From Desulfitobacterium dehalogenans ATCC 51507 (GTDB lineage Bacteria; Bacillota; Desulfitobacteriia; Desulfitobacteriales; Desulfitobacteriaceae), in assembly GCF_000243155.2 (NCBI RefSeq), contig NC_018017.1:3906001-3970000 (forward strand): 64,000 bases of DNA, written 5' to 3'. This document shows positions 10,506-63,693 of this stretch, one piece after another (position 1 is the first letter of the stretch; the number at the start of each line of letters is the position of its first letter). The notes beneath the pieces were generated by a model, which worked only from the letters and a program-made list of their open reading frames with translations, had not been told where the DNA came from and searched no databases. Position numbers and translations under genes: made by a program.

Positions 10506-10725
10506 CTATGATACGTTGTATTATTTTATATATTATTCGGTATCCTTCGATAAATTCCTACATTGGGAAAAAAAGAACTTTGTGACTAAAAAAAACTTTC
10601 TGATTTTACCCCATTTATTAGCATTTTCAGATTAGCATTTAGGGTTTTAAGTTTCTTATAAGTTTTAGGATAGCTATTCATGCCGCTGGCGGCACCGGCA
10701 GAGGAATAAAAAACGGCTCGGGTCA

Positions 10726-10970
10726 CGTAGCTTTACGCACAACGTTTACTCTATAGCTCCGGGGCTGGTCAACTCGCTTTCTTAACAGCTACGCCAAACC
10801 CCGCTGCTTTCTGTATGTGAACCGGTGGCTGCGCTACGTTAAGAAAGCTTTCGTTAACCCGACCGCCCCTCCGCTTAAAGAAAGCTTGGCTTATGGTGAG
10901 TGAAGCGAAGCAGAAGACTTAGCTGCCTTATACACAGTGAAATCCGTTCACTTTTGTGCGTAAAGCTACG
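10726..10970 (+). repeat. Module A of R1
   Basis: Closed by a perfect 17-base inverted repeat (10726-10742 with 10954-10970, core GTAGCTTTACGCACA). A second stem inside is GCTTTCTTAAC (10776-10786) with GTTAAGAAAGC (10838-10848). Just outside it, CGGGGC and GCCCC arms also pair. Confidence 0.8.
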
Positions 10971-11073
10971 CTTGCGGGTCTTTTTCAGCTCTGTTTTCGG
11001 GCTTTAGCACCAGCAGAGGATGAAAAAGCTTGTTTGGATCGGGTAGCAGCACCGCTCAGACCCGAAAGACAGC

Positions 11074-11310
11074 CCAAGGATTTTGCTTTAAGGTAGGGAA
11101 CGAATTTAAGCGAGCAGGTAAGCAATCTTCGCTAAAAGACTGCAGCGGAGTCGGGTTGGAAACAGGACGTTTCCAACCGGCTATGAGAACAAGTGCGAAA
11201 GCAGTGCTTTCGAGGAGCCGATTTAGCCGGGAACCCGACGCAGTGGAGGTCTTGAGCGATTAGATTGCTCCGCGCAGCTTATGGAGTGAGCGCCGAAAGC
11301 AAAATCTTGG
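11074..11310 (+). repeat. Module B of R1
   Basis: Outer arms CCAAGGATTTTGCTTT (11074-11089) and AAAGCAAAATCTTGG (11296-11310). Inside are GCAATCT/AGATTGC (11122, 11262), AAGAC/GTCTT (11136, 11249) and GTCGGGTT/AACCCGAC (11150, 11232). Next is a hairpin with perfect 10-bp arms (11154-11163, 11169-11178; loop AGGAC), then a GGCTA/TAGCC hairpin (11179, 11224). Confidence 0.8.
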
Positions 11311-11520
11311 AGAATCAGCTTTCAGGTCTTTTTCAGGGTAGCCCCCCCATGCCGCAAGCGGCATCGGCAGAGGATGAAACGTGGTCCTCCGGAATTATAA
11401 AGATTAATTAACTACCCTCTTCCCCATGCAATATGATATAATTTTTACACAAGTAAGAATTATTAAACAAAATCGAGCAATGATATCGAACAAACGATCT
11501 GAATTTGTGAGGTAGAAAAT

Positions 11521-27091: not shown

Positions 27092-27209
27092 AGTATTTTC
27101 TCCTCTCTCAATCTTGGTTGGTTTTTGGATCTTTTGGGGGCTTCATTTGGGATCTTTGCTGGGGTCGTTCTATCTCTTTATTGGGGTCACTGCTCTTTAT
27201 TTGGGTCAG
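27092..27209. repeat. Degenerate short tandem repeat upstream of fadE
   Basis: Between 27130 and 27209 the phrase TTTGGGGTC / TTTGGGTC recurs four or five times, spaced by CT-rich bases (for example CTTTATTGGGGTCACTG, CTCTTTATTTGGGTCAG). It abuts repeat R2. It may be a relic of element insertion. Confidence 0.4.
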
Positions 27210-27388
27210 GTAGCTTTTCGCACATCATTCACTCATTAGCTCCAGGGCTGGCGCTCCCGCTTTCGCAGCAACTCCGCCAAACCTCAGGGTAATACCTGAA
27301 GTGAACCATGGCTCCGCTACCGCTACGAAAGCTTTGTTCGCCTGAACGCCCTTCCGCTAAAATCGTTCATTCTTGTGCGAAAAGCTAC
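27210..27388 (+). repeat. Module A of R2
   Basis: Outer arms GTAGCTTTTCGCACA (27210-27224) and TGTGCGAAAAGCTAC (27374-27388) differ from the other copies by one A:T to T:A swap on both sides. The inner arms are GCTTTCGCAGC (27259-27269) and GCTACGAAAGC (27322-27332). The loop holds a CCTCAGG-type hairpin. Confidence 0.8.
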
Positions 27389-27496
27389 GCTTATTCTGCA
27401 TGTAAGATCAGGTAATTCTTTGAAGTCTAAGCTGAGGCGGGAAACCTGTCTTCCCGTCTTCCTATCTTCCTATCCCACCGTATCGCAAAAGAAGAC

Positions 27497-27715
27497 CCAA
27501 GGATTTTGCTTGACAGTAGAGAACGGCTTCTAAGCGAGCAGTTAACCGTTCTTCGCGAAGAGCTTACAGCGGAGTCGGGTTGGAAACAGGACGTTTCCAA
27601 CCCGCTAGAGAGCCAAGGATGGCGATTTAGCGGGGAACCCGACGGAGCTGAAAGCTTGAGCGATTAGAACGGGTACGCGCAGCTTATAGAGTGAACGGGG
27701 CAAGCAAAATCCTGG
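27497..27715 (+). repeat. Module B of R2
   Basis: Arms TTTTGCTTG (27504-27512) and CAAGCAAAA (27701-27709). Inside are CCGTTCT/AGAACGG (27546, 27666), GAGCT/AGCTT (27560, 27653), GTCGGGTT/AACCCGAC (27574, 27636) and CGCTA/TAGCG (27603, 27628). The central hairpin with loop AGGAC is unchanged from other copies. Confidence 0.8.
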
Positions 27716-27737
27716 AGAACGCTCGTGAACAGTGGCC

Positions 27738-34288: not shown

Positions 34289-36355
34289 ATGTCCAATCAA
34301 GATCCTCTTTTTTCACCGATTCACATCGGAAAAATGGAGCTGAAAAACCGTATGGTGCTGCCCGCCATGCATCTTAACTATTGCCCTGACGGGGAGGTCA
34401 CGGATCAGCTCATTGAATTCTATCGAGCTCGCGCGCGGGGTGGTGTAGGTTTGGTCATCATCGGCGGGTGCGGCATCGATCGGGTCGGCAATACCTTAGG
34501 AATGGTTCAATTGGATGAGGATCGCTTCATTCCCGGATTGCAAAGGCTCGTGGAGGCCGTCCACCAAGAAGGCGCTAAGGTCGTAACCCAACTCTATCAG
34601 GCGGGAAATTATGCATCTTCTCTATTAACTGGAAATCAACCCGTTGCCCCATCTCCCCTCCCTTCTAAACTAACGAAAGAAATCCCCCATGAATTGACTG
34701 TGGAAGAAATTAAGGAACTGGTCCAGAAATTCTCCCAGGCTGCTGTCCGTACTCAACAGGCGGGCTTCGACGGCGTGGAAATTCTGGCAGGGACAGGATA
34801 TCTCATCTCCGAATTTCTCTCCCCGGTGACCAATAAGAGAACGGATGAGTATGGTGGGGATCTTTCCAATCGGATGCGTTTTGCGCTGGAAATTGTGGAA
34901 GCCATTCGCCAAGGGGTAGGGCCTGACTTTCCTGTCATTGCCCGAATCGCGGGTCATGATTTTATTCCGGGCGGGCATACCAACGTGGAGGCGCAGACTT
35001 TTGCTAAAGCTTTGGAGGAAGCTGGGATTAATGCTATTAATGTAACAGGGGGCTGGCATGAGACAGTCGTCCCTCAGATTACTATGAACGTTCCCCCGGC
35101 TGCATTCCGATATTTAGCGAGGGGAATTAAAAAAGTGGTTTCAGTACCGGTTTTTGCTTCTAATCGCATTACTACCCCTGAGTTGGCCCGGGATATCCTT
35201 ACTTCAGGGGATGCAGACCTGGTGGGGTTTGCCCGGCCAATTCTGGCGGATCCCCATTTACCCTTAAAAGCCCAGGGATTGGATCCCTCCCCCATTCGCC
35301 CCTGTGTGGCCTGCAACCAAGGGTGTCTGGATCATGTGTTCCGCGGGAAGCCCGTGGCTTGCCTGGTCAATGCGGAAGCCGGACGGGAAGCTGAGCTAAA
35401 GGCTCAGGGTAAGGGCGCGAAGAACACCGGTAATACCATCAATGGAGGGACTTCCTCACCCCCTAGAAAAGTTCTCGTGATAGGGGCCGGTCCTGCCGGG
35501 CTGGAGTTTGCACGGGTAGCCAGCTCACAGGGACATGATATAACGGTCTGGGAAAAATCAGACCAACCGGGCGGACAGCTCAATTTAGCTGCGGCACCGC
35601 CGGATCGCCAGGATTTCAATCGGTTTACGGAATATCTGGTTCAGGCCTGCAAGGTCCAGGGAGTCAGGCTCTTTACTAATCAAGAGGCCAATCTGGAGAA
35701 TCTCTCCGCAAGTATTGAGGAGGAAGGCTTTACGGATATCGTTCTCGCTACCGGTGCTCTGCCTATGAATCCTCCCTTCCCGGTAGATGAAGGGGCAGAG
35801 GTTATCCAGGCCTGGGATGTCCTTACCGGAAAAGAGACGGGTGAAAATGTAGTGATTGTCGGCGGCGGCTCGGTGGGAGTGGAAACAGCCCTCTACCTAG
35901 CCGGTCAAGGAACCCTGGATGCTGAAACTCTCCGTTTCTTGATCGTCAATCAAGCGGAAAATACAGAAGCCTTAGCTAAATTGCTTTTCCAAGGAAAAAA
36001 ACGAGTTACTTTGGTGGAAATGACCAAAGGCGTGGGCCGCGACCTGGGCTCAAGCACCCGATGGGCAATGCTGGCTGATCTTCAACGTCATAGAGTAAAA
36101 GTTTTGACTCATACTGCAGTAAAAGCAGTTCGTGCCGACGGAGTCTGGGTGGAGGGTCCGGAAGGCGAAAGCTTGATTCCCGGAGATACTGTGGTGTCAG
36201 CCGTTGGCTCTGTGGCTAACCAGGAGTTACTGAAGGCTCTCCAGGATAGGTTACCCACCCATGTAACCTTACATCAGATCGGAGATGCCATTAAACCCGC
36301 CAAAGTGTTGGATGCGGTTCATACCGGGTATAAGGCCGCCCTTAGTTTGGGTTAA
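34289..36355 (+). CDS. fadH: 2,4-dienoyl-CoA reductase / NADH:flavin oxidoreductase family enzyme
   Basis: The start is ATG 34289, nine bases after GGAGG; the longer frame from 34238 runs through the operator. The 688-residue product has an Old Yellow Enzyme barrel (about 1-340; MELKNRMVLPAMHLNY, ARGGVGLVIIGG). The 4Fe-4S motif CVACNQGCLDHVF...VACLVN follows. The FAD domain includes VLVIGAGPAGLEFARVASSQ, and the NAD(P) domain VVIVGGGSVGVETALYLAG. This is the FadH/TMADH architecture, which reduces conjugated dienoyl-CoA or other enones. Divergence from etfB with FadR-type sites supports a fatty-acid role; the substrate is inferred. Confidence 0.85.
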   Translation: MSNQDPLFSPIHIGKMELKNRMVLPAMHLNYCPDGEVTDQLIEFYRARARGGVGLVIIGGCGIDRVGNTLGMVQLDEDRFIPGLQRLVEAVHQEGAKVVTQLYQAGNYASSLLTGNQPVAPSPLPSKLTKEIPHELTVEEIKELVQKFSQAAVRTQQAGFDGVEILAGTGYLISEFLSPVTNKRTDEYGGDLSNRMRFALEIVEAIRQGVGPDFPVIARIAGHDFIPGGHTNVEAQTFAKALEEAGINAINVTGGWHETVVPQITMNVPPAAFRYLARGIKKVVSVPVFASNRITTPELARDILTSGDADLVGFARPILADPHLPLKAQGLDPSPIRPCVACNQGCLDHVFRGKPVACLVNAEAGREAELKAQGKGAKNTGNTINGGTSSPPRKVLVIGAGPAGLEFARVASSQGHDITVWEKSDQPGGQLNLAAAPPDRQDFNRFTEYLVQACKVQGVRLFTNQEANLENLSASIEEEGFTDIVLATGALPMNPPFPVDEGAEVIQAWDVLTGKETGENVVIVGGGSVGVETALYLAGQGTLDAETLRFLIVNQAENTEALAKLLFQGKKRVTLVEMTKGVGRDLGSSTRWAMLADLQRHRVKVLTHTAVKAVRADGVWVEGPEGESLIPGDTVVSAVGSVANQELLKALQDRLPTHVTLHQIGDAIKPAKVLDAVHTGYKAALSLG

Positions 36356-36410
36356 GCCGGATGCAGCTTGGGCGGCACCGGTAGAGGACGAAAAGTGTTG
36401 TCTGGGTCAT

Positions 36411-36674
36411 GTAGCTTTACGCACAACGAACCTTCGGGCGTGAGCTCCTGAAACCCTCCACCGGAGGCTTTCTTCATCGGAGCACACGTACTCCATAGCT
36501 CCAGAGCTGGTTAACTCGCTTTCTTAACAGCATCTGCAGCGGATAAGAACCCTTTGGGGTGTGCCGCTTTGAGCGAAACTGTCCACCGGACACTTTCGTC
36601 GCCAAACCTTTGAGCAGAAAGCCTTAGCTGCCTTATACACAGTGAAAGCCGTTCCCTCTTGTGCGTAAAGCTAC
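36411..36674 (+). repeat. Module A of R3
   Basis: Outer arms GTAGCTTTACGCACAA (36411-36426) and TTGTGCGTAAAGCTAC (36659-36674). It contains an inserted palindrome with arms CGTGAGCTCC (36439-36448) and GGAGCACACG (36479-36488), and the left inner arm GCTTTCTTAAC without its partner. Confidence 0.75.
36531..36598 (-). repeat. Double-hairpin mini-element (in module A of R3)
   Basis: 68 bases; read on the minus strand it goes CGAAA-stem-TTTCG, CTCAA, AGCGG...CCGCT, GCAGATG. It replaces a 5-base loop present in R1, giving a clear insertion relative to the empty site. It is nearly identical to the copy at 63424-63491. Confidence 0.75.
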
Positions 36675-36745
36675 GCTTGCGAGTCTTTTCGTGTCCTTTC
36701 TGGGGTCATTCTTTTCATCTGCAACCCCCAAGCCCGAAAGACAGG

Positions 36746-37045
36746 CCAAGGATTTTGCTTTAAGGCAGAGAACGGATTCTAAGCGAGCAGGTAAGCAATC
36801 TTCGCGAAAAGACTGCAGCGGAGTCGGGTTGGAAACAGGACGTTTCCAACCGGCTATGAGAACAAGTGCGAAAGCAGTGCTTTCGAGGAGCCGATTTAGC
36901 CACGAAACCCGGGCGAGGGTTTCGCCCAAGCCGCCACCCCACAGAGACTACTTAGCGGCGCAGGTGCACCCGGCGCAGCGGAGGTCTTGAGCGATTAGAT
37001 TGCTCCGCACAGCTTATAGAGTGAACGCCGAAAGCAAAATCCTGG
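36746..37045 (+). repeat. Module B of R3
   Basis: Outer arms CCAAGGATTTTGCTTT (36746-36761) and AAAGCAAAATCCTGG (37031-37045). It is 63 bases longer than B of R1, the difference being one mini-element between the GGCTA/TAGCC hairpin and the CCCG right arm. Confidence 0.8.
36903..36966 (+). repeat. Double-hairpin mini-element (in module B of R3)
   Basis: 64 bases: CGAAACCC/GGGTTTCG hairpin, CCCAA, GCCGC...GCGGC hairpin, GCAGGTG. It is absent at the same place in R1 and R2, and present in R4. Confidence 0.75.
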
Positions 37046-37151
37046 AGATTCAGCCTTCAGGCTTTTGCTGCATAGCCGGATACCATCAGCGATAGGGAAA
37101 ATTGAGATACTAAATAAATGGGTTCACCAACCCATGAGAGGGGTAGCATCG

Positions 37152-37937
37152 ATGAGTTCATACAATGATTTTACAGTGGAGAAAAAAGGGGCTATAGCCC
37201 TTGTTACCTTAAACCGTCCCAATAAGGGAAATTCCTGGACCTTAGATACTTACCAGGAGATGGAGAAAATTCAGGAGGACCTTCATTATGATGATGAGAT
37301 CCGGGTGGTTATCTTCACCGGAGCAGGGGATAAATTCTTTTGTGCAGGTGCCGATCTCTCTCTTTTAGCCAAGCTTAACTCTCATTTTATCTCACGTGAT
37401 CTGTATCGCTATCAAGGCATTAACACCCGTTGGGATCGTTTTATTAAACCCGTCATTATGGCAATCAATGGCATCACCGTGGGAAGTGGTTTGGAGCTGG
37501 CCCTATGTGGAGATATCCGCATTGCCTCAAGTTCCTCTGTCTTTTCCATTAACGAAGTGCGTATTGGTCTTAACCCGGATATGGGAGGAACGCAACGTCT
37601 GACACGAACTGTCGGCCCCAGCCAAGCCAAACGCCTTATCTTCACTTCCGAGCGGATCGATGCTCAAGAAGCAGCTCGCATCGGACTTGTGGATATTGTG
37701 GTAGAGTCGGAAAATTTATTGGATGAGGCCTTTAATATGGCTGAACAGATTGCCAATATGCCTCCTTATGCCATTCGCTTTGCTAAAAAAGCCATTAACC
37801 TGGCTGTGGATGCTCCTTTAGAAGTAGGGCTGATGTATGAAGAAGCCGGCTCCACTTTCTGCATGGGTACAGAAGACAAAAAAGAGGCCATCACCTCTAT
37901 CCTGGAAAAACGCGAACCAAAATTCCATGGCCGCTAA
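37152..37937 (+). CDS. Enoyl-CoA hydratase/isomerase family protein (crotonase)
   Basis: The start is ATG 37152, nine bases after GAGAGGGG; upstream in-frame ATGs lie within repeat R3. The 261-residue product has the crotonase oxyanion-hole segments FTGAGDKFFCAGADLSLL and GLELALCGDIRIASSSSVFSINEVRIGLNPDMGGTQRL, with a Glu in the INEVRIGL position. It hydrates enoyl-CoA or isomerises double bonds in the cytoplasm. It duplicates the hydratase half of FadN, so it probably acts on short-chain or unsaturated intermediates. A bidirectional terminator follows. Confidence 0.9.
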   Translation: MSSYNDFTVEKKGAIALVTLNRPNKGNSWTLDTYQEMEKIQEDLHYDDEIRVVIFTGAGDKFFCAGADLSLLAKLNSHFISRDLYRYQGINTRWDRFIKPVIMAINGITVGSGLELALCGDIRIASSSSVFSINEVRIGLNPDMGGTQRLTRTVGPSQAKRLIFTSERIDAQEAARIGLVDIVVESENLLDEAFNMAEQIANMPPYAIRFAKKAINLAVDAPLEVGLMYEEAGSTFCMGTEDKKEAITSILEKREPKFHGR

Positions 37938-37978
37938 CCGGAATCGCAGATTGGTCAAGTGATTCTCCGGAAGAAAAA

Positions 37979-40332: not shown

Positions 40333-43300
40333 TCAACTTTTCCTCCACTTAATTGTTTATACTCACTATCCAAATAATACATATATTCCTTTGCCTCCTC
40401 AGGATTTCCGCGTCGGGCAGCCAGCTCGATCTTAAAGGCAAGAGCCTTTAATCTATGGGCTCCGATTACGGAGCACCGTTCTTTTATGCGATGAGCTATA
40501 TGTTCTAGGGCCACGCTGTCTCCATTGTTTAAGGCGATTCGCAATTTTTTAAGATCATAGGCCATTTCGAAGAGCTCAAGTTCCCCGTTGACTCTCTCTA
40601 AGGAAGAGGGCATGCCTGCCAAATAGACTCCTTCATCTGTAATGACAACCTCTTCCTGCTGGACCTGTCCATCTCCGGAAACGAACTTGGTGACCACTCT
40701 ATCCAAGACCATGATCAGTTCCTCCATCATCACGGGCTTGGGAATATATTCATCCATTCCGGCATTCAGAAATCCTTCCCGATCCCCTTTCAAGGCATAT
40801 GCGGTTATGGCAATGATGGGGGTATGGCTTTGGACCCCTTCACTTTCCCTGATTCTTTTCGTTACTTCGATCCCGTCCAAGCGAGGCAACTGGATATCCA
40901 TAAGAATAACATCATAGGAATTCTTATGATAAAGAGCTAATGCTTCCTCTCCATCCATGGCGACATCCACAGCATGCCCTTGGGTTTTGAGCATTTCCGT
41001 AATCACGACGGAGTTTACAGCATGATCTTCAGCTAAAAGGATTCGGTAAGATCCTGCCGTTGATGTCACCTTTGGCTCATCTATATTCCGGGCTGGTTTG
41101 AAGCCTATAGCGTCCTTGTCACAGTGCTTTAACTTCAATACAACGCAAAAAGAACTCCCTTTCCCTTTTTCACTTTCAACCCAGATTTTCCCGCCCATCA
41201 TGTCGACCAGTTTTCTTGATATAGCTAACCCTAAGCCGGTTCCCCCATATTTGCGGGTAATAGAACCGTCCACTTGGTTAAACTCTTCAAAAAGATTTAT
41301 TTGTTCCTCTTTGGCTATGCCAATCCCGGTGTCCTTAACAGTGAATTTAAACTCCGAAAAGTCCTTGTCCCATTGTAAGCGTTTGATCGTAAGGGAGACC
41401 TCCCCCCGTTCAGTAAATTTGAGGGCGTTACTCAGCAGGTTATTAAGCACCTGCTTAATGCGTTCCGGATCCCCGTTATAGTAATCGGGAAGGTTCGCTG
41501 AAAAGGTATAGACTAAGTCTAAGTCTTTACGCTCAGCTTCAGGGCTATGAGTTTTTATAATCTGCTCGATGATTTCCTTAAGGTTAAATTCAATCTCTTC
41601 AACGGTTAATTTTCCGGCTTCGATCTTAGAAAAATCCAAAATATCATTGATAATTTTGAACAAAGAATAGGCGCAGTTCTTGGCAATCTTTAGATTCTCC
41701 TTTTGGATATCCTCTAAGGAGGCTAAGAGAGTCAGATCAATCATACCAATGATCCCATTGATAGGTGTACGAATTTCATGACTCATATTGGCCAAAAATT
41801 CGCTTTTGGCCCGATTGGCGGCTTCAGCCTTCTCTTTGGCCTGCTGAAGTTCCACTTCAGCCTGTTTGCGTTCCTGTTCGATTTGCTTTCTCTCGGTAAT
41901 ATCACGAAGAAGAGTCAACATGACATTTCTGCCGTTCAATCTAAAGGTATGGCAATTGACTTCGACTGGAATATCCTCACCCTTCAGGTTGGTACATACC
42001 CCTTCGAAACTTACTGAATTGGTTTTCTTAAGGCCTTCCCACATTTCATCCAAGGTCAATTGGGGTGAGGCTGGTCGGATACAAGCTCCTATAAAAAGTT
42101 TGAAGGTTTCTTCATTATATCCCATAAGCCTGCTGGCTTTTTCATTAATTTCGATCAATGGCCCGGGATGTCCATTTTCTTCTAGTTCATGGACAAAAAC
42201 CGCATCGGTAATATTATCGAAAAGCTGGCGATATTTATTATGACTTTCTAATAATATCTGTTGGATCCGCTTTTGATTGGTAATATCTCTGGCAATGGAA
42301 AGCAACACCCTTTGGCCGTTTAAAACAGTATAATGAGCTTTGACTTCCACAGGGATTTCCCTCCCTTTTTGGGTCAAAAGCATTCCCTCGAAAACCAGGT
42401 GACTTTTACTTAACAATTTCTGAGTGAACTCATTAGCCAAGGTCATAGGGCTCTTGGCTTGGATGACTTCATTACTTAAGTCCATAATCTCAGCCCTGGT
42501 CAGCCCGATAAGCTCACAAGCCATATCATTGACTTCTCGAATTCGTCCAATTTGTCCATCGTCCTTAACTTCATGGATAAACACACAGTCTGTGATACGA
42601 TTAAAAATCTCTCTGAATTTCTCTTCGTTTTCACGGATAATAACTTCTGCTTCTTTGCGCTCTGTAATGTCACGGATGATGCTTATTAGAATTCGTTTAT
42701 CCCTCCAAAGAATGCCTTGAGAACTCACCTCTACAGGAATTTTGCTTCCGTCCTTACGCAAGTGTACCGTCTCGAAAAAGCATCCCTTTTCCAGGGCAGT
42801 AAATATTTGCTGCCAAGCAAAATTGGGCTCTGTACGGAGGTCAAATATTTTTAAGGATATTAACTCCTCACGGCTATACCCATAGGTATTAATCGCCGCT
42901 GCATTAGCATCAAGTATTTGTCCCTCCTCATCAATCATCAGAACAATATCCCGAGCATGGCTGAAAACAATCTGATATACTCTTTCGGCCTCCTGTACCA
43001 ATTTCCGATCCGTAATATCTATGACCACACCGGTATACCCTGCAAGTTCTCCTTGGGAATCATAATAGGGTTGACCACGATTCAGACAATGACGATATTC
43101 TCCATCATAGCGACGTAACCGGTACTCTACTTCAAAGGGTGCATTATGTCTGCAACTATGCTCCATCACATCCATGGTCTTCGAGTAATCCTCAGGATGA
43201 ATGCTGCTCACCCAACCATCATCACGGATTTCCTCAAAAGTAAGCCCCGTAAATTCCAACCAAGCTTGATTCACATAGTCATGCTTTCCTTCCCGATCGT

Positions 43301-54827: not shown

Positions 54828-54864
54828 ACGCCTGTCCTTAAGTTTCTAACTTAAGGACAGGCGT
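54828..54864 (-). terminator. T-box-controlled terminator
   Basis: The stem has 17-base perfect arms (ACGCCTGTCCTTAAGTT side and its complement) and a 3-base loop, followed by TTTTT. It lies between the T-box sequence and trpX and is the off switch of the riboswitch. Confidence 0.9.
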
Positions 54865-55085
54865 ATAAACCTGCGGTACCACCTTAATTGATGCATGAAA
54901 TAAACCATACATCCTCTCTTGCAGGGTGCCATCACACCCTTAGCCCAGTAACGCTGGCTATGCGTCGTAAGCTACTCATTGCTTTTCGCTCCGCCCTCAG
55001 GGGCCCATTTACTCGCTCCGTTACCTGCCAGGCTTCCACCTTCCCCGGCTCTCTTTAAGGCTGGTCTTGCGGTTTTACTTCCCCA
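54828..55085 (-). promoter_or_regulatory. T-box riboswitch sensing tRNA-Trp, controlling the trpXYZ-type operon
   Basis: On the minus strand the T-box sequence AGGTGGTACCGC lies at 54873-54884, followed by the terminator. Stem I contains AGAGAGCCGG and GGTGGAAG. The specifier loop reads AAATGGGCCCCTGAG, with TGG at 55005-55007 in the codon position. TGG is tryptophan. Uncharged tRNA-Trp would stabilise the antiterminator and permit transcription. The specifier call rests on alignment with known T-box stem I layout from memory. Confidence 0.88.
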
Positions 55086-55140
55086 TCAACAGTTTAGAAC
55101 AGTTTAGCATATTATTTTCCAGGAATCAATAGAGATTTAT

Positions 55141-62860: not shown

Positions 62861-62895
62861 TTTGCTATGCTGAAAAAGGCCCGAAAGCTGAATCT

Positions 62896-63171
62896 CCAGG
62901 ATTTTGCTTTCGGCGTTCACTCTATAAGCTGCGCGGAGCAATCTAATCGCGAAAGACCTCCGCTGCGTCGGGTGCACCTGCGCCGCTAAGTAGTCTCTGT
63001 GGGGTGGCGGCTTGGGCGAAACCCTCGCCCGGGTTTCGTGGCTAAATCGGCTCCTGCCTCATAGCCGGTTGGAAACGTCCTGTTTCCAACCCGACTCCGC
63101 TGCAATCTTTCGCGAAGATTGCTTACCTGCTCACTTAGAATCCGTTCTCTGCCTTAAAGCAAAATCCTTGG
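62896..63171 (-). repeat. Module B of R4
   Basis: Outer arms CCAGGATTTTGCTTT (62896-62910) and AAAGCAAAATCCTTGG (63156-63171). The right inner stem is CGCGAAAGA/TCTTTCGCG, replacing the imperfect pair of R1 and R3. The GGCTA/TAGCC hairpin is shortened. Confidence 0.8.
62975..63038 (-). repeat. Double-hairpin mini-element (in module B of R4)
   Basis: 64 bases, identical in length and nearly in sequence to the copy in B of R3, at the same insertion point. Confidence 0.75.
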
Positions 63172-63423
63172 GCTGTCTTTCGGGTCTGAGCAGTGCAACT
63201 CTTTCGAAAAGACCCAAAAGAAGGGCCAACAAAGACGCGCAAGCGTAGCTTTACGCACAGGAGCGAACGGCTTTCACTGTGTATAAGGCAGCTAAGGCTT
63301 CTGCTTCGCTTCACTCACCATAAGCCAAGCTTTCTTTAAGCGGAAGGGCGGCCAGGTCAACGGGGCTTTCTTAACTTAGACGAGCCACCGGTTCACCTCA
63401 GGTATTACCCGGAGGTTTGGCTC

Positions 63424-63491
63424 CGAAAGTGTCCGGTGGACAGTTTCGCTCAAAGCGGCACACCCCAGAGAGTACTTATCCGCTGCAGATG
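63424..63491 (+). repeat. Double-hairpin mini-element (first in module A of R4)
   Basis: 68 bases, matching the copy at 36531-36598 in R3. Second stem is AGCGG/CCGCT, where the other type has GCCGC/GCGGC. Confidence 0.75.
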
Positions 63492-63564
63492 CTGTTAAGA
63501 AAGCGAGTGAACCAGCCCTGGAGCTATAGAGTACGTGAGCTCCGATGAAGAAAGCCTCCGGTGA

Positions 63565-63633
63565 CGAAACCATCCAGTGAATGGTTTCGCCCAAGCCGCC
63601 CTAGCCACAAAGATGAACTAAGCGGCGCAGGTG
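63565..63633 (+). repeat. Double-hairpin mini-element (second in module A of R4)
   Basis: 69 bases with first stem CGAAACCAT/ATGGTTTCG and second stem GCCGC/GCGGC. R3 has the host palindrome without this insertion at the matching point (near 36456), giving an empty site for comparison. Confidence 0.75.
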
Positions 63634-63693
63634 GGTTTCAGGAGCTCACGCCCGAAGGTTCGTTGTGCGTAAAGCTACGCGACCCGAGCAAAT

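Follow-up and report, generated by a model that had tools for sequence, protein, structure and literature searches.

A clade-specific, self-nesting double-hairpin element in the chromosome of Desulfitobacterium dehalogenans and its relatives

INTRODUCTION

Small palindromic repeats fill many bacterial genomes, and their spread is mostly unexplained, save for the REP/RAYT system. In mosaic intergenic repeats such as BIME and BOX, optional sub-modules are carried within larger palindromic repeats. REP dimers within longer palindromes are also on record (Di Nocera et al. 2013, PMC3733652). The nearest analogue of the element described here, in architecture and behaviour, is found in the mitochondria of fungi and algae, where double-hairpin elements and GC clusters are described in passages of PMC5910586 (citing Paquin et al. 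2000) and PMC4478555 (Wu and Hao 2015); the yeast GC clusters are credited with a putative target-site duplication. Closer to our organism, passages of Stepanov and Fox 2021 (PMC7812874) report that 5S pseudogenes of Desulfitobacterium and Desulfosporosinus carry inserts, and describe a 69-nt insert in helix IV of the 5S rRNA of D. dichloroeliminans. Beyond this 5S paper, the open-licence literature searched held no prior description in either genus.

Here, we describe a mini-element in a window of 64,000 nucleotides of the D. dehalogenans ATCC 51507 genome (NC_018017.1, positions 3,906,001 to 3,970,000), which consists of one contig of 4,321,753 bp. The window is compared with relatives in the family, among them a sister genome, G002, which is probably D. 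hafniense.

RESULTS

Five copies in two host composites

The mini-element is a short, non-coding unit of 64–69 bp with two tandem hairpins. The copies in the window, and the larger repeats (modules A and B) concerned, are as follows.

36363 to 37075, plus strand: host composite of modules A and B, with copies 1 and 2 inside
36531 to 36598, minus strand: mini-element copy 1, long hairpin-1 type, filling site A1 of module A
36903 to 36966, plus strand: mini-element copy 2, short hairpin-1 type, filling the module B site
36450 to 36472, minus strand: unoccupied A2 target hairpin, resembling hairpin 1 of the mini-element
62864 to 63685, minus strand: second host composite, in which copies 3, 4 and 5 lie
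62975 to 63038, minus strand: mini-element copy 3, the same as copy 2 in sequence, filling the B site in the second composite
63424 to 63491, plus strand: mini-element copy 4, long type, at site A1 of the second composite
63565 to 63633, plus strand: mini-element copy 5, at site A2 of module A, inside a hairpin between GAAAGCCTCCGGTG and GAGGGTTTC
10680 to 11343, plus strand: host composite with the module B site empty near 11233
about 27180 to 27724, plus strand: diverged host module with the B site empty near 27600–27640, in a stretch not conserved in G002

The five copies stand where the first-pass annotation had placed them, and their strands (three plus, two minus) can now be added. The order of motifs that it gave, CGAAA-stem-TTTCG, C(C/T)CAA, a second stem and GCAG(A/G)TG, was found in all five; as it also stated, the second stem reads GCCGC/GCGGC in three copies and AGCGG/CCGCT in two, and the copies occupy three positions within the modules, namely the B site (two copies), A1 (two) and A2 (one). 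Its proposal of compensatory stem changes was borne out by an alignment of 31 distinct members, in which five of the ten core pairs changed on both sides. Across these ten pairs, 96% of the cells are paired, a level reached by none of 500 shuffles of the alignment. The plan of the element consists of CGAAA..TTTCG, a linker C(C/T)(C/G)AA, a 5-bp second stem and a tail G(C/A/T)AGG, and in the long type hairpin 1 has a mostly conserved G-G mismatch. Single-strand DNA folding gave two hairpins in every copy tested, and the window copies score 72–75 bits (E about 1e-15) with a covariance model that these same copies helped to build. A weak match to this model (36430–36473, 23 bits) lies over the unoccupied A2 hairpin; site A2 is vacant in the first composite and filled by copy 5 in the second. 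Module B copies that lack the mini-element show GCCGGGCACCC or GCCGGGAACCC at the place of copy 2.

Copy number and hosts in the window's genome

The module A+B composite matches about 41 places in the window's genome, and the mini-element occurs there in 40 copies at five kinds of site. The module B site accounts for 24 of them, site A1 for 11 and site A2 for two; the remaining three lie in degraded 5S rRNA genes, each a second 5S copy that stands behind an intact one. A search outside modules A and B, as suggested by the first-pass annotation, yielded these three copies here and other hosts in relatives. Solitary copies, which it had named as support for mobility, are absent from the unique DNA of this genome, all 40 copies lying in modules A or B or in 5S pseudogenes. 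Each site in this genome has its own subtype of the mini-element, which indicates that independent insertions were few and that most copies are hitchhikers.

The B modules are filled in 24 of 41 cases and empty in 17, and a second optional hairpin in module B, AACAAGTGCGAAAGCAGTGCTTTCGAGGA, is seen in all four combinations with the mini-element. Occupancy of the B site hardly follows the module tree, on which, poorly resolved as it is, filled/empty changes number 10 versus 13.4 expected if random. The composite (window 36345–37110 and related copies) has further optional parts: a AACAAGTG..GAGGA hairpin in module B, a flanking hairpin TTTTTCAG..GATGAAAAA and, in module A, a cassette TTAAAGAAAGCTTGGCTTATGG..CACAGTGA of roughly 62–85 bp, which is present in locus L062 and not in its G002 orthologue.

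Orthologous loci in the sister genome

The flanking genes of G002 and the window's genome (G000) are 82–87% identical, and at orthologous loci the presence of the mini-element differs in both directions. At L311/L058, an A1 copy is found in G002 only and a B copy in G000 only, with L058 showing an empty A1 site; at L302/L063 and L312/L051, a B copy is present in G002 only. When filled and empty forms were compared at the three module sites, the filled form was seen to carry A, then the element, then GTG or ATG, in place of three bases (GGG or GAG) of the empty form; no target-site duplication of the mini-element was found in the empty/filled pairs compared. Since both arms of the flanking stem differ at L311/L058, gene conversion is possible at this locus. 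The element occurs outside modules A and B and varies in position and presence between species; the idea of mobility, which the first-pass annotation would have given up had neither been so, therefore survives.

At the window locus 36363–37075, the entire composite is missing from the orthologous site in G002. AGCCGGAT flanks the whole composite at both ends, and may represent either a target duplication or a deletion between flanking repeats; the duplication is ambiguous because the flanking hairpins share that sequence. Elsewhere in the window, about 335 bp (42668–43003), in coding sequence seemingly of tandem similar domains, are missing in G002, and a T-box leader (Rfam RF00230) lies at 54850–55098 on the minus strand.

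Spread across the family

With the covariance model, 40 of 45 genomes from this family of soil bacteria were positive for the element, the highest count being 114 copies, against only 2 of 37 genomes from elsewhere in the class. The sole class-scan matches outside the family (G065 C34:781–846, L340, and G066) are few and weaker, and could be distant relatives or the result of transfer. A pattern scan of named genome contigs gave numerous chance matches, in Pseudomonas among others, and no plasmid relatives were found.

In the relatives, the exact ends of the element (query 13–76) are kept while the flanks differ or are unrelated. Site A1 is occupied in Desulfosporosinus too, and in G017 and G010 the module B insertion lies on the opposite strand. 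Further hosts in relatives are 5S pseudogenes and miniature elements with the hairpin CTTCGGTGA..TCACCGAAG, which hold one or two mini-elements inside and which, from their end hairpins and general knowledge, we take to be IS605-like. In G005 (88 matches), near-identical IS605-like miniature elements with unique flanks (L344–L367) look recently active, and many of them hold two mini-elements in opposite orientations. Over 147 distinct contexts, which are partly non-independent and include a few chance pattern matches in other phyla, the left flanks vary, CA or GA being commonest before CGAAA, and a perfect flanking stem of at least 8 bp is found in 22, compared with 1.9% when left and right flanks were re-paired at random.

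Nesting of the element within itself

By a strict rule, the mini-element lies within hairpin 1 of another double hairpin in 22 contexts. In G022, a 450-bp stretch of an antisense 5S pseudogene carries three nested levels: the outer element, CGAAAGGC..GCCTTTCG, has a second stem of its own; a second element, CGATAGTGTCC..GTATCG, sits in the loop of the outer one; and a third, CGAAAGCC..GTAGG, sits in the loop of the second. Elsewhere in this stretch are an outer element that contains a second one without the third, and an outer element that contains no other. When empty, the second element has the sequence CGATAGTGTCCGGTG-GACA-GTATCG; when filled, it has CGATAGTGTCCGGTG-A(third element)..GA-GTATCG. 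The long mini-element has a TCCGGTGGA loop too, and window copy 5 occupies a hairpin of that kind. Because the long form brings the target loop along, each copy that inserts offers a further site, and nested copies arise.

Comparison with REP doublets and Y1 genes

The first-pass annotation likened the element to REP/REPIN doublets moved by RAYT transposases. What stands of this comparison is a two-hairpin unit that moves independently of the modules; the REPIN/RAYT assignment is not supported, as the tag, the inverted pair, solitary copies and an intact Y1 gene are all missing, the last two in the window's genome. Neither a GTAG tag nor a constant CGTC tag was found in the 147 contexts (CGTC occurs on the complement in about a third of them), and hairpins 1 and 2, which are unlike in sequence and in tandem, are not inverted copies of one palindrome. 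An associated RAYT/Y1 transposase, which the first-pass annotation would have counted as support for mobility, did not emerge either: the Y1 sequences of the window's genome are IS200-type fragments, all interrupted or truncated. The complete genomes G003 and G046 have 16 and about 30 copies, respectively, with no Y1 gene at threshold, and G004, G007, G012 and G015 have Y1 genes with zero copies. Several relatives have single-copy RAYT-like genes whose proteins reach or nearly reach the NF047646 cut-off. At the ten relatives' loci examined, no strong mini-element lies beside the Y1 genes, and weak matches occur at G005 only. RAYT was rejected as the mover, with the tests of presence, correlation and neighbourhood all failing to support it, and no autonomous partner or transposase for the mini-element was found. 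In G002, a RAYT-like gene (C8:98706–99473, L323) lies just past the orthologue of window 37937–37976, and is absent there in the window's genome.

DISCUSSION

The mini-element is a real, independently moving, clade-specific and self-nesting unit: its ends stay exact where the contexts are unrelated, its sites are seen both filled and empty, it lies in either orientation, it nests to three levels, and at orthologous loci it may be present or absent. We hold it to be somewhat more probable than the contrary that it is a non-autonomous mobile double hairpin that inserts into hairpin tips, and hence into itself, and that most copies here hitchhike on the modules. Each insertion would place a block at the tip or junction of an existing palindrome, the targets being modules A and B, the IS605-like miniature elements, 5S rRNA pseudogenes and, in other double hairpins, the CCRGTG loop of hairpin 1. 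The long form would offer this CCRGTG loop again after insertion, and each copy could become a new target for nesting. At all three kinds of module site, the filled form has lost about three bases, GGG or GAG, that stand in the empty one. Most copies in the window's genome would have spread by riding the larger modules, and gene conversion between modules may add turnover. Non-homologous insertion at opened DNA hairpin tips is the route that we prefer and infer; perhaps a copy is captured once a structure-specific nuclease has opened the tip, the enzymes being encoded elsewhere. A bolder form of this proposal, which we advance tentatively and consider doubtful, is a self-targeting element that recognizes DNA hairpin structure plus the loop, carries the target in its own hairpin 1 and inserts recursively by means of neither Y1/RAYT nor a known DDE transposase.

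Several observations count against a mobile element: no transposase was found, the target-site duplication is lacking and no copy lies in unique DNA here. Filled/empty differences at one site can come from gene conversion too, and the replacement of short loops at insertion is unlike classical transposition. The features of a classical MITE are likewise missing, with ends (CGAAA and GCAGRT) that form no terminal inverted repeats and no duplication in the empty/filled pairs. It is conceivable, though rather improbable in our judgement, that no transposition took place, and that the unit was captured a few times by larger repeats and then redistributed between similar hairpins by gene conversion, unequal recombination or template switching of the polymerase. 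This would agree with the confinement of all 40 copies to repeats or 5S pseudogenes, with the site-specific subtypes, with the four combinations of the mini-element and the second optional hairpin, nearly unlinked to the module tree, and with the one orthologous pair (L311/L058) that differs in both flanking stem arms. However, repeated non-homologous starts would be needed to account for the opposite-strand B sites, the 5S pseudogenes, the IS605-like elements and the exact ends in unrelated flanks.

A further reading, which we think unlikely, makes the mini-element part of the structure of a large non-coding RNA, where it would form a three-way junction with conserved joining strands and would be retained by selection and shuffled as an RNA domain. 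The conserved linker and tail, the strong folding of the host module (z −5.9), the neat fit at stem tips and the presence at rRNA operon ends are compatible with such a domain, but both strands are used within one composite, sister species differ in presence and absence, and copies sit in pseudogenes. An Rfam search with the modules and the mini-element gave no match to a known RNA family. Among the non-Watson-Crick cells, hairpin 2 has two G-U versus 18 A-C, and hairpin 1 has 12 G-U versus eight A-C; as G-U is not in excess over A-C, this strand test gives no sign of selection on a one-strand RNA, and selection at the RNA level was discarded. The missing G-U excess and the copies on both strands of one composite favour a DNA element, with an RNA role as a possibility.

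A REP/REPIN doublet moved by a RAYT (Y1) transposase is very improbable: it would be in keeping with the two hairpins, the G-G mismatch mostly conserved in the long hairpin 1, the RAYT-like single-copy genes of several relatives and the REP dimers inside palindromes of other bacteria (PMC3733652), but not with the lack of GTAG, a CGTC that no more than about a third of contexts show on the complement, the lack of an intact Y1 in the window's genome, copy numbers uncorrelated with Y1 genes across genomes, and ten Y1 loci without a strong adjoining copy.

The mini-element can be set beside the known systems. Like REP/REPIN with RAYT (PMC3733652), it is a family of many-copy, extragenic small palindromes, but it has neither GTAG nor a constant CGTC, lacks an inverted hairpin pair, and neither needs RAYT nor lies next to it. 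In contrast to BIME and BOX, the sub-module here is also found in unrelated host repeats and in itself.

The description of a 5S rRNA expansion segment applies to the mini-element, yet to only three of the 40 copies in the window's genome. The 69-nt 5S insert, inspected in G003, has an empty loop, and its two-hairpin plan is that of the outer element around the 5S-linked mini-element of the window's genome. At L368 of G003 (about 2241573–2241816), the expanded 5S rRNA has a two-hairpin insert in helix IV and another double hairpin near the 3′ end, with a plan related to that of the mini-element. The passages of PMC7812874 draw no connection between the 5S inserts and nesting or a dispersed family of mobile elements, and the mini-element would give these puzzling inserts of the family a common origin.

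With the mitochondrial double-hairpin elements, as portrayed in the passages of PMC5910586 and PMC4478555, the mini-element shares short tandem hairpins, no coding capacity and no known mobilizing enzyme, as well as presence or absence at homologous sites and merging into composite forms. It differs from them in its bacterial chromosome, its preference for hairpin tips, the replacement of about three bases and nesting to three levels. Compared by architecture and behaviour, the likeness is likely to be convergence, and the mini-element would be a bacterial parallel to the mitochondrial elements. Its clear ends, orthologous filled and empty sites, unrelated hosts and ordered self-nesting, in bacteria that can be cultured, make the movement of protein-less hairpin elements testable.
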